Of a DNA stretch of 64,000 nt, positions 24,499 through 57,822 are shown in pieces. Location of the stretch: positions 3,456,436-3,520,435 of the forward strand of contig NZ_CP041352.1 of NCBI RefSeq assembly GCF_009746125.1, written 5' to 3'. How positions within the stretch are numbered: the first letter of the stretch is position 1; every line of letters begins with the position of its first letter. Position numbers and translations under genes: made by a program. The notes beneath the pieces were generated by a model, which did not search any database, was not told the origin of the DNA, and saw nothing but the letters and a program-made list of their open reading frames with translations. The DNA comes from Casimicrobium huifangae (lineage in GTDB: Bacteria; Pseudomonadota; Gammaproteobacteria; Burkholderiales; Casimicrobiaceae).

Positions 24499-25140
24499 GG
24501 CTTGATTCCTTTACGGTTTTGCTGGCATCCGCACAGCGCGGTGCCATGGATGAATTGTTCTGCGGCACCGCGAAAGCAACCATCAGAAATCGCTCATATC
24601 GGTTGTAGTCTCCCACCTACATTGCGACGCAATAGTGCCGCCGATGCGCATCGACCATGTCGGAGAACCTTTCGGACACGGTGCCGAAAACCTCTCCTCA
24701 TCTCTGGGTGCAAACCACTCATCGCATGACGTGGCCGTCCTGATCGAAAGCGCGCCTCAGAATCAATGTTGCGGCCGTCAGCTGAATTCTCCTGGCCGAA
24801 CTCCCGCCTTCAGCGCTCTCCTCCAACGCTGCACTTCACCGTCCACCTCAACGATCGTCGAACGTCTTACGTCTCCGCCAACGCCCGAATGCGCAATGCT
24901 GAGTTTGGTTGTCTCGTCCGCAGCGCACTCATGGAACGCTATGCGGTCGTGGGCATTTACTTCCGCCGTCGCAGCGTTGACTCTGCGCTTTTCTACCCTT
25001 CCTGCGAAAAGCGACATATTGTCGACTGCCAGTCAACTTAGACTGTCTTTTCCTACGACACACCCGTTTTCCGTTGCCGCATCGCTTCGGAGGATGTCCG
25101 TTTTCGCCTCGTGCCCCACAATCGCTTCCGGCAAACCAAT
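24499..25140. other. 640-bp gap without a supported gene
   Basis: It should contain the promoter of the csbD-like operon (minus) and of the secreted repeat protein (plus). Open frames of 80-177 codons run through it on both strands, but they have no recognisable domain, no ribosome site and unnatural composition, so I do not call them. Its composition is less GC-rich than flanking genes, which may mark decayed or foreign DNA. Confidence 0.5.
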
Positions 25141-25965
25141 ATGTTTCATCGTGCTTTTGTTTTTTTAGGCAGCAACACCACCTCATTCACAGTACGGCTC
25201 TGCAAGGTCGCGATCTGGATAGGCTGCGCGGTGACAAGTATCGGTTCGATGTCAGCGACGATCGGCGGGAACGTAACCGGATTGACCCAAGCCGGGTTGC
25301 AGTTGCAGGTCACCACACCAACTCAGGACGGTGTCTCATGGTCGGAAGTGTTGGCCGTACCCAGCGGGGCCACGCAATACACGTTCACCTCCAACTTCAA
25401 CACCCAATACGGGCATTCGTTTTCGGTCACGGCCCAACCACCGGGTTCGTTCTGCGTGCTCACGCGCGAATATGCGCTTGCGAACGATGGCGGCAACATT
25501 ACCAACGTAGATGTAGTGTGTGCGCCTGGCAAACCAATTGGAGGTAAAGGATTCGTACCGGGGTTGGTGCTGCAAACGGGTGGTCAACAAGTAACCGCGT
25601 CGCTCTCGCCATCTGGCGTGTATCGCTTTTCGCAGTATCTACCGTCGGGGGATCGCTACGACGTGTGGGTGGCTGCACAACCTGCAAGTTGGCATTGTGT
25701 GGTGCAAAACGGCACCGGCACCATGGCCTCATCGGTAGTTAGCAACATTGATGTCACCTGTATCCACGAATCAAACTGTTCACCGGATGTCGATGACGAC
25801 GGTCGCGTGCTGGCAAACACGGACGGCCAAATTGTCAATCGCCTCATGCGGGGCCTGCGGGGTCAAGCGGTACTTTCTGGCTTGAATCATCCAAACGCCA
25901 GGCGCAACAACTGGGGGGCATTGCGCGACTACCTCAATCTAAGGTGTGGCATGGCGCTGCCATAG
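25141..25965 (+). CDS. Secreted repeat protein with dockerin-like C-terminal module
   Basis: 274 aa from the ATG at 25141; a GTG 30 bp upstream is an alternative. A signal peptide (to about residue 38) is followed by two copies of a beta-rich domain of about 85 aa, each starting near IGG..GL/VPGL and ending QP....C...(N).GT...V.N.DVTC with two conserved Cys. The C-terminal 60 residues (DVDDDGRVLANTDGQ, GLRGQAV, NNWGALRDYL, ending CGM) match the module in the proteins at 26042 and 56375. Probably a surface or secreted adhesin-like protein; function unknown. It is 76 bp upstream of the next gene on the same strand. Confidence 0.75.
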   Translation: MFHRAFVFLGSNTTSFTVRLCKVAIWIGCAVTSIGSMSATIGGNVTGLTQAGLQLQVTTPTQDGVSWSEVLAVPSGATQYTFTSNFNTQYGHSFSVTAQPPGSFCVLTREYALANDGGNITNVDVVCAPGKPIGGKGFVPGLVLQTGGQQVTASLSPSGVYRFSQYLPSGDRYDVWVAAQPASWHCVVQNGTGTMASSVVSNIDVTCIHESNCSPDVDDDGRVLANTDGQIVNRLMRGLRGQAVLSGLNHPNARRNNWGALRDYLNLRCGMALP

Positions 25966-26041
25966 CTCGGGCCGCATGAAATTGCCGTGGTGATCGATGC
26001 GTCGAACCATGACGATGTCGCACTGGACGAGATGAGTTTGA

Positions 26042-28018
26042 ATGAGAAGCCGAATGAAAATGGACCAACACCACGATTACTCGATTGATGAGCACAACGC
26101 TTGCCGCATCGAAACACCCCCAGCCCGGATCAGCTCCCCACGCCCGTACAGCGCGTTAGCCCGTACAGTGGTGCCGTTGCGCTCCGCGGGTGCAGGCACC
26201 GGATCGCGAGTCATCGCCATGTTGGCACTCGTTGCCGGAATGAGTGTCATGGTCGGCGCACATGCGGCAGAGTGTCCTCATGGCACGATCATCACGGCCG
26301 AAGACACCGTGTGCACCGTGCCGAGTGGCACGGGTTTCGTGACGGTTGAATTGTGGGGCGCCGGCGGGGGATCCGCAGCGGGAAGCAGAGACTTCGGTGG
26401 TGCTGGCGGTGGCGGCGGTGGCGCTTACTGCTCCGGCATGGTCGCGGTTGACCCCGGCAATTCAATTACTCTCAAAGTCGGGCGAGCGGGCACAGGCAGC
26501 GTCTTTCAAAACGTTGACGGCTGGAAGTACGGCGACAACGGGGGGGCAAGCACGGTGACCGGCCCTCCGGGGCTTGCGGGATTCCGCGCCGCAGGCGGCA
26601 AAGGTGGGCGGGGCGGCAAGTTGCCTGCGATACCGTTGCCCCTCACCGTGACATTGGCATGGGGCGGCGAAGGCGGGGACGCGGAGCAGTGCGCCATCAC
26701 TGACGTGGCGATCAATCGCCTGCGCTACTCCGGCGGCCGGGGTGGCGGCACCCAGGGTCATGCCGGTGGCGGCGGCGGATCAGCCTATCGCAATGGCAAC
26801 GGCTACCCCGGTCAGGACTCGACCACCAACGACAGTGGCCTTGGCGGCGCCGGCTTTGGCCGTGGCGGTGACGGGCATACCGGTGAGCGAGGCAGCGCTG
26901 GCACATACCCCGGCGGCGGTGCGGGCGCTAGTGCAGTAACCCCAGTGACGCCCGTATACATCGGCAATGACGGTGCCAACGGACAGGCGATTTTCTGGTT
27001 TGCACCTGGGTATCGTGTCGGTGGTGCCATTGATCCCGGATTTTGGGCCGATGGCTTGGTGCTAGGGCTCAACGGCAGCGAGGAAATAGCAGTAAGGCCA
27101 ACCGGCTACGAATACCTGTCCACGTTCTATCACTTCTGGACCCCCTTGCCGGCGGGTAACGCTTACAACGTAACGATCAAAAGGCAACCTGCGGGACAAA
27201 CCTGTTACGTCAACAATGCCAGCGGCACCGTCAGCGGCAATGTTGGCAACGTCGCAGTGGGTTGCGTCGACGATCCATACTACGTTAGTGGCTCGTTGTA
27301 CGGGTTGTCACAGCCGGGATTGGTTCTGGGACTGTTTGCCGGCGACTCGACTGCGGGCCAGCGTCTGGGAACTGTGACCCCCGCTATGGCTGAAGAGTCA
27401 TTCGCCTTCGCTGGTAGCCCCGTGCGCCTGACGCGGCAATATACAGTGGGCGTTGTCACCCAGCCGACAGGCCTGACCTGCAAGGTGGCAAACGCGACCT
27501 TCTTCGTGCAAGGACCGATCACAGATGTGCGCGTCACTTGCTCGCCGGGCAAAGTCGTGGGGGGTAGCGTGTCCGGCCTCTACGCAGGGCGGTCCGTCGC
27601 GCTGGAGCTCGCAGATCAACTTCTGGTGGCAACGAACTCGGATGCCGGCGGCGCAACCGTTAACGTCGACTTCTTCTTCCCAGGGCCGCTTCTCAGTGGC
27701 ACCGCATACAACGTGCGCATACGAGATCAGCCTCTGGGCCAGATGTGTAATGTCGTCAACGGGAGCGGGACGATGGGTAGCAGCGATGTCAATTCCGTGT
27801 CAGTCCAATGCGCGGGAACTATCTGCACCAACCTGGACGTAGACGGCGATCAACAGCTCAATCCCGCCATTGATGGACTCATTTTGCTGCGCGTGGCTCT
27901 CGGCCTTACGGGGGCAGCCGTTCTTGACGGGATCTCGTTTGCCCCCGGGACCCGAAACACATGGTCAAATATTCGCTATTACCTGAAGGATAGTTGCGGC
28001 ATGCCAACGAACGACTAA
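26042..28018 (+). CDS. Secreted glycine-rich repeat protein with dockerin-like C-terminal module
   Basis: 658 aa. The likely secretion signal is unusually late (hydrophobic stretch MLALVAGMSVMVGAHAA at about residues 60-76), so either the signal is extended or translation starts at an internal GTG. Residues about 80-310 form a glycine-rich domain (ELWGAGGGSAAGS, GGAGGGGGG, GGKGGRGGK, GGAGFGRGGDG). Then come three ~85-aa beta domains like those of the preceding protein, each with QP.G..C and ...V.C. The final 65 residues repeat the D-x-D-x-D/DG...R..LGL.G.AV...W..IR..L...CGM module. The stop overlaps the start of the TPR-AraC regulator (TAATG). Extracellular role inferred from signal and repeats only. 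Confidence 0.78.
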   Translation: MRSRMKMDQHHDYSIDEHNACRIETPPARISSPRPYSALARTVVPLRSAGAGTGSRVIAMLALVAGMSVMVGAHAAECPHGTIITAEDTVCTVPSGTGFVTVELWGAGGGSAAGSRDFGGAGGGGGGAYCSGMVAVDPGNSITLKVGRAGTGSVFQNVDGWKYGDNGGASTVTGPPGLAGFRAAGGKGGRGGKLPAIPLPLTVTLAWGGEGGDAEQCAITDVAINRLRYSGGRGGGTQGHAGGGGGSAYRNGNGYPGQDSTTNDSGLGGAGFGRGGDGHTGERGSAGTYPGGGAGASAVTPVTPVYIGNDGANGQAIFWFAPGYRVGGAIDPGFWADGLVLGLNGSEEIAVRPTGYEYLSTFYHFWTPLPAGNAYNVTIKRQPAGQTCYVNNASGTVSGNVGNVAVGCVDDPYYVSGSLYGLSQPGLVLGLFAGDSTAGQRLGTVTPAMAEESFAFAGSPVRLTRQYTVGVVTQPTGLTCKVANATFFVQGPITDVRVTCSPGKVVGGSVSGLYAGRSVALELADQLLVATNSDAGGATVNVDFFFPGPLLSGTAYNVRIRDQPLGQMCNVVNGSGTMGSSDVNSVSVQCAGTICTNLDVDGDQQLNPAIDGLILLRVALGLTGAAVLDGISFAPGTRNTWSNIRYYLKDSCGMPTND

Positions 28019-56295: not shown

Positions 56296-56380
56296 GTAGC
56301 CTCGATGCAGCAGCGCGGAATCGAGGGTGACCTTGGCGCGGTGAACCAATGCCTCGATTCCGTTGTGCTGTGCGCTATGG
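56296..56380. repeat. GTAGCCTCGATGCAG palindrome, copy 3
   Basis: Left arm GTAGCCTCGATGCAGCAG with CGGAATCGAGG; the right arm CCTCGATTCCGTTGTGCTGTGCGC is degenerate and overlaps the stop codon (56375-56377) of the RCC1-repeat gene. Confidence 0.75.
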
Positions 56381-57822
56381 TGCAATCCCCGGAATGCCGC
56401 AGTTGCGCGTCATCACCGTGCGAATTTCTGGCCAGCTCCAGCGCGCCCCGGCACCGAGAGCGCCGTTGGTTACCGCGCTGCCGGAGAGGCCGAGCAGCGC
56501 GCGCAGCCCCATCAAGCCGTCGGTAGTGGCGGACACACTGCCGTTGCCGTCGAAATCCATGTTGCAGTCGCCTGGCACCGCGATCGCCGGGAAGTCGGTG
56601 GCTGCGGGCCAGCAGCGGATGCTGCCATTGGTGAGTGTCGCGCAGGCGCCGGTTTGGCTGATCGTGAGCGTATTCGCGCCAGTAACGCCGGTCACCTGCT
56701 GCGGCGTGCTGCTGAATGCGCCGGTAAAGCTGGTGTTGCCGAGCAGGCCGCCGGCGTTGTTCCCCCAGCAGAAGACGTTGCCGCTGGTGCCGATGGCGCA
56801 GGAATGGGTGTAACCGGCGACGACCGATGTCACCCCGGAAAGCCCGGCCACCACAGTCGGTACGTTCACCACCGCCCCGTTGTTGTTGCCAAGCCGACCA
56901 TCCGGGTTGGCCCCCCAACAGCTCGCAGTGTTGTCCGCGAGCACCGCGCAGGTGTGTCGCGAGCCAGTGGAGACGGCGGTGGCCGTGCTGATGCCGGTGG
57001 CGACGACGGGGGACGATGCGCCATACGTCGTCGGCGGCACTGCCGTTTGACCGTTACCGAGCTGGCCCGCCAAGATGTAGCCCCAGCACTTGACTTTGCC
57101 CTGATCGGCACCGGGCCCTTCCACCGCACAGGTAAATCCGCCGCCATCGTCGTTTAAGGTGAAGCTAGCATCGGTCGACACGGAGATATCAACGATATTG
57201 ATCAACCCGGCAATGACGCCGCTACCAAACACGGTGCTGCCAACGGAGGGTATGCCAAGCGATACGCCAGCCCAGTTTTCGCCTGAGCAGGCGACTTGGC
57301 CAGCCGAGCCCGGGGTCGCGCTGGCGCCGTAAATCGCGCAGGTATTGATAGGACCAATCGCAATCTTGCGCCCGCGAGCACCGGCGACGCCCACGCTGCC
57401 GACGAACTTCTTAGCACAGTTGTTTGTCCGAAATCGGCCCAAGTCGCGGCGCTAGCCGTCGCTGAGTACACCACCGCTGAACAACCAGTTCGCGAGGTGC
57501 CATCAGCGACGTTGTCCATTACTGAGCAGACGCCACTCGGACCCATCCAGAAACTGCGAAAGGTGTACGCACCGGATTGCGTCTCCAGCTGGTCGAGGAC
57601 CTGCGGATACTCGTACGATCCACTCCCCCAGCAACGCAACAGGTTGGTGTCGGTAAGGCCGCACACGGTGGTATTGCCGGGCCCGGTGCCGATGCCCACG
57701 CGAATGAACTTTTCCATGGGCCGCATCTGTGCGACGGCTGTCGCCGCAACGAGCACGGACGCCGCCACCATCAAACCCTTCGACGCGCGCGCAACGCTGC
57801 GGCGCAATGTGCCTGTTTGCAT
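56375..57822 (-). pseudogene. RCC1-repeat secreted protein with dockerin-like C-terminus, frameshifted
   Basis: The 5' frame (from the ATG at 57822, preceded by GAGGGGG) encodes a signal peptide and an RCC1-like start (VCGLTDTNLLRCWGSGSY) and stays open to 57202. The homologous sequence, however, moves to a second frame near 57405-57440 (GRFRTNNCAKKFVGSVGVAG...), which runs to 56375. That frame carries several RCC1-type repeats with the C(A/S)...G...CWG pattern (KVKCWGYILAGQLGNG, TASCWGANPDGRLGN, NVFCWGNNAGGLLGN). The C-terminal 60 residues match the dockerin-like module of the 25141 and 26042 proteins (DFDGNGSVSATTDGLMGLR, ending NCGI). Either a genuine frameshift mutation, programmed shift or sequencing error; about 480 aa if joined. 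Confidence 0.72.

Follow-up and report, generated by a model that had tools for sequence, protein, structure and literature searches.

A dockerin-like C-terminal module on 67 proteins of Casimicrobium huifangae and a possible two-tier route for their display at the cell surface

In freshwater Planctomycetes a planctosome has been hypothesised, made up of an anchoring protein, an adaptor with cohesin and dockerin, and dockerin-bearing peptidases (PMC6461901). Among Gram-negative proteobacteria, dockerin-like motifs have been described in Saccharophagus degradans, with two dockerin-like open reading frames (ORFs) reported, along with distantly related modules of cohesin-like type (PMC2386152). 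In the literature searched, no such system was found described for betaproteobacteria, or in combination with the IPTL-CTERM sorting signal. The present work concerns a stretch of 64,000 nucleotides of Casimicrobium huifangae (contig NZ_CP041352.1), hereafter the window, which covers C1:3456436-3520435 of a genome assembled as one contig of 4,465,898 bases (G000) and in which three secreted proteins end in the same type of module. It is proposed, with a little less than an even chance of being right, that this module is a dockerin-type docking domain, used in a two-tier, cellulosome-like display by way of an adaptor and an IPTL-CTERM stalk. The complete scheme, a Gram-negative cohesin-dockerin display with about 67 disulphide-clasped carriers of a 13-residue loop, a single adaptor, an XrtH-anchored IPTL-CTERM stalk, and a second-tier plug and socket swapped together at least twice in one genus, is put forward more tentatively still.

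The three window modules share 17 invariant columns over about 65 aligned residues, and the N-terminal parts of their carriers are mutually unrelated; an earlier note, made from the letters of the window, had claimed such a common C-terminal module on these three proteins, and the alignment bears it out at the places given there. A profile of the three modules gave 107 matches in G000, most of them at E 1e-7 to 1e-35, which after translation of the flanking stretches were assigned to 67 carrier proteins, 31 with a single unit and 36 with a tandem pair, a count based on the profile matches and the translated stretches around them. The search with a hidden Markov model that the note had suggested thus returned 67 carriers, where it had allowed that the genome might hold no others. 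Since most matches lie in that range of E-values, and since Asp 14 and Gly 24 of the unit reach 98% conservation and one Arg never varies, the size of the family is beyond chance.

One unit comprises about 55 residues, D-x-D-G-D/N-G-x-x-x-A-x-T-D-G-L-L-x-x-R-x-L-L-G-L-x-G-x-A-L..., followed by a variable turn and then R...I..yL. Measured from the first to the last Asp, the loop has 13 residues in 84 of 99 measurable units, 12 in 3 and more in the other 12, while the second half of the unit is devoid of a calcium loop; tandem carriers therefore have two loops, about 55 residues apart. The calcium-type loop of the pattern first drawn for the window proteins was thus retained, but the "DG" described there as a separate element was not, its D being residue 13 of the sole loop. 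Single units nearly always have a Cys before the loop and CG-x at the end, and in tandem carriers the Cys pair brackets the whole two-unit block, being present on both sides in 20, on neither in 13 and discordant in 3 (Fisher P 6e-7). Over all carriers, as counted by script, both Cys occur in 50, neither in 14 and only 3 are discordant, so that the Cys pair already suspected in the window is real; this is the pattern that would be expected of a disulphide joining the module ends. In addition, the AlphaFold model of the second window carrier's module (mean predicted local distance difference test, pLDDT, 91.6) has helices at 16-27, 33-36 and 49-60, that is, a helix, a short helix and a helix, the order typical of dockerins.

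The module is C-terminal in 64 of the 67 carriers, the protein ending 0-15 residues after it; in the other three it is flanked by Spherulin4 on one side and a metallophosphatase on the other (L044), precedes DUF1800 (L056) or precedes a glucose/sorbosone dehydrogenase, GSDH (L079). Of 68 frames, 51 have a signal peptide by a simple pattern, and inspection by eye shows one in several of the others. The commonest partner is the DUF5122/delta-60 propeller, found by Pfam in 22 of 68 scanned proteins, and other carriers belong to the RCC1, Kelch, subtilase, M64, reprolysin-type peptidase, ExeM-type nuclease, GSDH and laminin-G families; no glycoside hydrolase family is among the 25 commonest Pfam families of the carriers. 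Several carriers are homologues of LPXTG-anchored, rhombosortase-dependent or myxosortase-dependent peptidases and of GlyGly-CTERM forms, families with models that other anchoring tags define. The occurrence of one protein family with different C-terminal tags in different species is known from the work on GlyGly-CTERM (PMC3237569) and, because the carrier families elsewhere bear other anchoring tags in this manner, surface retention is pointed to as the common task of the carriers.

A tag of that kind could be a C-terminal sorting signal cut by a dedicated membrane protease, as with PEP-CTERM, GlyGly-CTERM or MYXO-CTERM, and the position of 64 modules at the extreme C-terminus, the final Pro of 45 carriers and the tagged homologues elsewhere would agree with it. 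However, the module alignments contain neither a transmembrane stretch nor a basic tail, three carriers have the module internally or N-terminally, rhombosortase was found in none of the 17 genomes of the genus, and the exosortase XrtH already has its own IPTL-CTERM clients; the sorting tag that the earlier note had also entertained is therefore disfavoured, and cleavage by such a protease is considered very improbable. The Pfam exosortase model gave no match, but as this model misses XrtH, which is found by TIGR04177, the result does not mean absence of exosortases. As a separate observation, the last residue is Pro in 45 of the 67 carriers, in the Cys-containing and Cys-free classes alike, for which no explanation was found.

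Some clustering of carriers was also seen: at L035 (G000:C1:248998-264733) eight ORFs that carry the module, or what is left of it, lie inside 16 kb, mostly DUF5122/delta-60 propellers, and one of them (ORF 253794), which retains just its final third, seems to be truncated. It might be argued from this cluster, and from the frequency of the propeller, that the carriers arose by duplication of a few genes and inherited the module without any selection specific to it. Yet the other carriers come from many unrelated families (subtilases, M64, GSDH, ExeM nuclease, RCC1, DUF1800, Spherulin4-Metallophos), and the module varies in position and is invariant in its core, which makes mere paralogy the least probable of the explanations weighed here.

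As regards kinship, a sequence search of the whole PDB gave as its four best matches the type I dockerins 1ohz, 2ccl, 4uyp and 4uyq (E 0.013 to 0.2), aligned with a loop one residue shorter than that of the module, and calmodulins ranked next. No Pfam or NCBIfam model reached its cut-off on the module, and Dockerin_1 (PF00404) was the sole recurrent match below threshold, with a best score of 20.3 bits over six module sequences (gathering score 22.9) and no match to the window proteins. The two 12-residue F-hand loops within about 60 residues that characterise PF00404 were not found either, each unit having one loop, usually of 13. The 3 units with the canonical 12-residue loop, like the PF00404 matches below threshold, speak for a dockerin-type domain. 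With dockerins as its PDB neighbours, Pfam scores below cut-off and a fold search without a clear match, the module is, on sequence grounds, best described as dockerin-like and kept outside PF00404. It is thus not simply part of an established dockerin family, the outcome which the earlier note had named as fatal to its idea, as no family covers it at cut-off. Moreover, a dockerin with a disrupted calcium loop has been published from R. flavefaciens (PMC5934362), so that a divergent loop is, by itself, compatible with function as a dockerin.

The propellers, lectin-like (Laminin_G) and RCC1 proteins among the carriers could also suggest that the module self-associates or binds a matrix or polysaccharide directly, with no protein receptor, in which case tandem copies could raise avidity. 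Nevertheless, Pfam gives it no likeness to carbohydrate-binding modules (CBM), and a helical surface with conserved Arg, Gly and loop is nearer to dockerins, so that this alternative appears rather improbable. The favoured reading is the dockerin with an unseen cohesin partner, which the earlier note had offered as one of its options, and it draws on the dockerin neighbours in the PDB, on a candidate adaptor with its anchored neighbour, and on a dockerin swap in that adaptor.

The candidate partner was reached from outside the genus. In three relatives (L110, L111 and L127) the tandem module is immediately preceded by a domain some 145 residues long, which is marked by the motif GL-x-hydrophobic-x-[HR]YDSSKL and, when compared with the PDB, matches only the cohesins 1g1k and 2vn5, at E 0.4-0.6 (profiles A8 and A14). 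A family search with this domain led to secreted proteins of the genus, and a new profile was built from those. By that profile, the gene of the adaptor is single-copy in 11 of the 17 genus genomes, and no convincing match was obtained in the 30 other genomes searched. The adaptor profile is related to that of the domain beside the module by hhalign (P 6e-6 and 7e-6), and gives no cohesin match itself. The cohesin model PF00963, run as a control, was found in only 1 of 398 genomes of Pseudomonadota; that sole cohesin of the phylum sample (L187, on G718:C1, of the same order) lies in a short protein whose tail, VPEPGSW...RRR, resembles PEP-CTERM, and has no significant hhalign score to any candidate domain.

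A single cohesin-like domain is present in the G000 adaptor, which gives no CBM match and whose C-terminal Dockerin_1 scores 23.4 bits (32.3 in G015) over a cut-off of 22.9. The gene of an anchored stalk protein begins 18 bases downstream and is followed by a terminator-like hairpin (L177:8285). Its IPTL-CTERM region, with the IPTL/IPTM motif, a transmembrane helix and a basic tail, is recognised by TIGR04174 and PF18203 (25.5 bits over a cut-off of 20.5, and 28.1 over 20.8) and is the best of 10 IPTL-CTERM matches in the genome. Two carriers lie directly upstream of the adaptor gene, and gspD-E-F, of type II secretion, about 10-14 kb from the operon; over the genus, adaptor gene and gspD are 5-53 kb apart where both are on one contig. 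G000 has two distinct type II secretins over the curated cut-off (C1:646191-648002 and 1633941-1635842), the second alone being near the adaptor operon. The pair of adaptor and anchored genes was also read in G001, G002, G003, G007, G011, G012, G013 and G015, and in part in G005 and G006. XrtH, the exosortase paired with IPTL-CTERM, is encoded at G000:C1:1206355-1206825 (TIGR04177, 197.5 bits over a cut-off of 86) and, of the 29 family genomes searched, 28 have it, the exception being G003.

These operons were also compared within the genus. The adaptor C-terminus is a canonical dockerin with 12-residue loops in G000, G003, G005, G006, G013 and G015, and the Cys-type tandem module in G001, G002, G007, G011 and G012. 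The N-domain of the anchored protein, in turn, falls into three unrelated classes (I in G000, G003, G005, G013 and G015; II in G001 and G012; III in G002, G007 and G011), and the type of adaptor dockerin matches this class in all 10 assignable genomes, G006 being left out. The cohesin-like domain, on the contrary, ignores the split, that of G001 being 80% identical to the one of G015, from the other class, and 38% identical to that of G012, from the same class. Given the ten matches out of ten against these identities, the adaptor dockerin and the neighbouring N-domain travel together, and the cohesin-like domain separately. Whether through linkage or through coupling, the module takes the place of a true dockerin in orthologous adaptors. 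The class I and class III N-domains were also considered as cohesins and dropped, as there was no profile link to the cohesin-like family.

A mechanism can be proposed on the basis of the carriers, loop, Cys pair, operon, anchor signal, XrtH and swap found by computation, to which we add by inference calcium, the disulphide, the export route, the fold of the receptor domains and every binding step. Carriers with signal peptides would probably leave the cell through the type II secretion system and fold with calcium, the module then consisting of one calcium-loaded, F-hand-like loop of 13 residues and two main helices with disulphide-clasped ends. At the surface, the module would dock on the cohesin-like domain of the adaptor, whose own C-terminal dockerin would in turn dock on the N-domain of the stalk protein. 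The latter, extended by Calx-beta repeats, would be sorted by its IPTL-CTERM tail and XrtH.

The distribution of the module is narrow. All 16 other genomes of the genus have it (10 to at least 84 units each by profile search), and of the 31 remaining family genomes, one had 2 units and another a single weak match; in the rest of the order it was found in 0 of 32 genomes, and in the class sample two genera besides that of the window gave one match each. Being genus-wide and nearly absent from the sister genera, the expansion is a property of one genus. Further tandem copies, usually inside long ORFs, occur in 17 viral contigs of IMG/VR (L110-L126), in a metagenome-assembled genome (MAG) of Cellvibrionales (L127) and in a betaproteobacterial MAG (L128), the latter two being the only named relatives in a contig scan with one unit as query; annotated phages and annotated plasmids gave no module match. 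The viral contigs have a guanine-plus-cytosine content of 0.35-0.45, DALTDGL-type loops and ORFs often longer than 1000 codons, often starting with PSIG[LI]xM, which could represent virion proteins or bacterial genes that were misfiled.

Several results weigh against docking on the adaptor. PF00963 gave no match in G000 at E up to 10, and the cohesin homology of the candidate receptor, at E about 0.4, is weak by sequence and suggestive only; the AlphaFold model of the cohesin-like domain paired with the module was of low confidence (pLDDT 45). Foldseek and VIA searches with the window module gave no clear match, the dockerin 5m2s_B appearing at E 5.7 only, an outcome that speaks neither for kinship nor for its absence. 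The class I anchored N-domain, the kind present in G000, has no recognised relative and no link to the cohesin-like family. The co-variation of dockerin and N-domain could be due to linkage alone, because the 3' end of the adaptor gene and the 5' end of the anchored gene adjoin. One cohesin for some 67 clients would be unusual and would need a high copy number of the adaptor or further receptors. Moreover, three near-complete genomes of the genus (G008, G010 and G016) have modules and no recognisable adaptor. G008 and G016 are the two smallest of the genus (2.5-2.6 Mb), with 10-13 units and neither adaptor nor anchor gene near gspD; in G010 the strongest class of gspD match is missing too, so its adaptor locus may be missing as a whole. 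Finally, the modules of the 17 viral contigs sit inside large ORFs, and the sporadic genomes with a lone module gene suggest some use independent of a partner.

An alternative is that the module has no docking partner and is a calcium-triggered folding and stability cap, which would hold exported proteins in an unfolded or export-competent state until calcium is encountered outside the cell, or that it is recognised by the type II secretion system. Such a role would agree with the lone copies in other genomes, with the internal or N-terminal position tolerated in some carriers, with the modules near type II secretion genes and with the 10-13 units kept by G008 and G016 without the adaptor operon. 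Nevertheless, it leaves unexplained both the exchange of module and true dockerin in the adaptor and the genus-specific operon, and the sister genera have the secretion system without the module. Because cohesin kinship is weak, some genomes lack the adaptor and one cohesin would have to serve 67 clients, a role without a partner, although unlikely, keeps an appreciable chance, and docking through the adaptor is retained as the preferred explanation.

In the window itself, the first carrier is without any Pfam or NCBIfam family match. For the third, which the earlier note had placed at 56375, the module stands but the extent of the gene had to be corrected: one ORF (57822-57202) encodes the signal peptide and first repeats and a second (57442-56375) the remaining repeats and the module, so that the gene appears to start at 57822 and to be frameshifted near 57,400-57,450. 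This could reflect either a decaying gene or a sequence error. The features are collected in the table.

Table. Window carriers, their modules and loops (window positions), and the adaptor and stalk genes elsewhere in the same genome.
Feature	Position	Strand	Description	Basis
Secreted carrier 1	25111..25965	+	284-residue ORF; earlier start 25141 falls inside it	
Carrier 1, single-unit C-terminal module	25771..25962	+	SNCSPDVDDDG...RCGMALP	profile E 1e-33
Carrier 1, 13-residue calcium-type loop	25786..25824	+	DVDDDGRVLANTD	sequence, loop census
Secreted carrier 2	26042..28018	+	658 residues; glycine-rich domain PF21722 and beta repeats	ORF, Pfam
Carrier 2, single-unit module	27818..28015	+	TICTNLDVDGD...SCGMPTND	profile E 2e-35
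Carrier 2, 13-residue calcium-type loop	27836..27874	+	DVDGDQQLNPAID	sequence, loop census
Carrier 3	56375..57822	-	RCC1-repeat protein	ORFs, Pfam
Carrier 3, single-unit C-terminal module	56378..56572	-	GDCNMDFDGNG...NCGIPGIAP	profile E 1e-32
Carrier 3, 13-residue calcium-type loop	56519..56557	-	DFDGNGSVSATTD	sequence, loop census
Adaptor gene	G000:C1:1647794-1649107 (L177:4795-6108)		signal peptide, cohesin-like domain, middle region, C-terminal Dockerin_1	
Anchored stalk gene	G000:C1:1649126-1651227 (L177:6127-8228)		signal peptide, N-domain of unassigned fold, Calx-beta repeats, IPTL-CTERM	

If the proposal is true, cellulosome-style docking extends beyond the anaerobic fibre degraders and would be a general means by which Gram-negative cells retain dozens of proteins at the surface after type II secretion. 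A function would also be given to a client of IPTL-CTERM and XrtH, a whole class of secreted proteins of one genus, now called "hypothetical", would be explained, and new disulphide-clasped, orthogonal plug-and-socket pairs would be supplied for protein engineering. Furthermore, because orthologous adaptors show this swap in nature, specificity can be tested directly with a few purified domains.

Compared with the type I dockerin (PF00404), the module likewise has a D-x-D/N-x-D-G F-hand loop and, after it, a helix that bears a conserved Arg, is equally portable and usually C-terminal on secreted proteins, as the dockerin is on secreted enzymes, and is exchanged with it in adaptors; it differs in its 13-residue loop (84/99), its loopless second half, its Cys clasp and its score below cut-off, and its clients, unlike those of cellulosomal dockerins, are mostly propellers and peptidases. 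The cellulosome has its dockerins mainly on plant-wall glycoside hydrolases and a CBM-bearing scaffoldin with multiple cohesins, whereas here propellers, RCC1 proteins, subtilases and reprolysins are the commonest Pfam families of the carriers. With the sortase-anchored scaffoldin of Ruminococcus (PMC11557425) it has in common a dedicated sorting enzyme that acts on a C-terminal signal of the anchoring protein, although that Gram-positive system relies on LPXTG and sortase and on cohesin arrays, as against IPTL-CTERM and XrtH and one cohesin-like domain. The GlyGly-CTERM/rhombosortase and MYXO-CTERM/myxosortase systems (PMC3237569, PMC11980579) are alike in their many-to-one suffix and in the protein families that carry it, but the module is a predicted folded calcium-loop domain with no transmembrane segment, and no cognate protease was found. 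Saccharophagus degradans (PMC2386152) is equally a Gram-negative proteobacterium, for which only two dockerin-like ORFs and no anchor operon were reported, in contrast to the 67 carriers described here. The closest published proposal is the planctosome (PMC6461901), which also combines an anchor, an adaptor and peptidases and is not related to cellulose; it belongs to another phylum and has a lamin-tail anchor, whereas in the present case the anchor is of the IPTL-CTERM/XrtH type and a Cys-clasped form with a 13-residue loop is distributed over 67 proteins.

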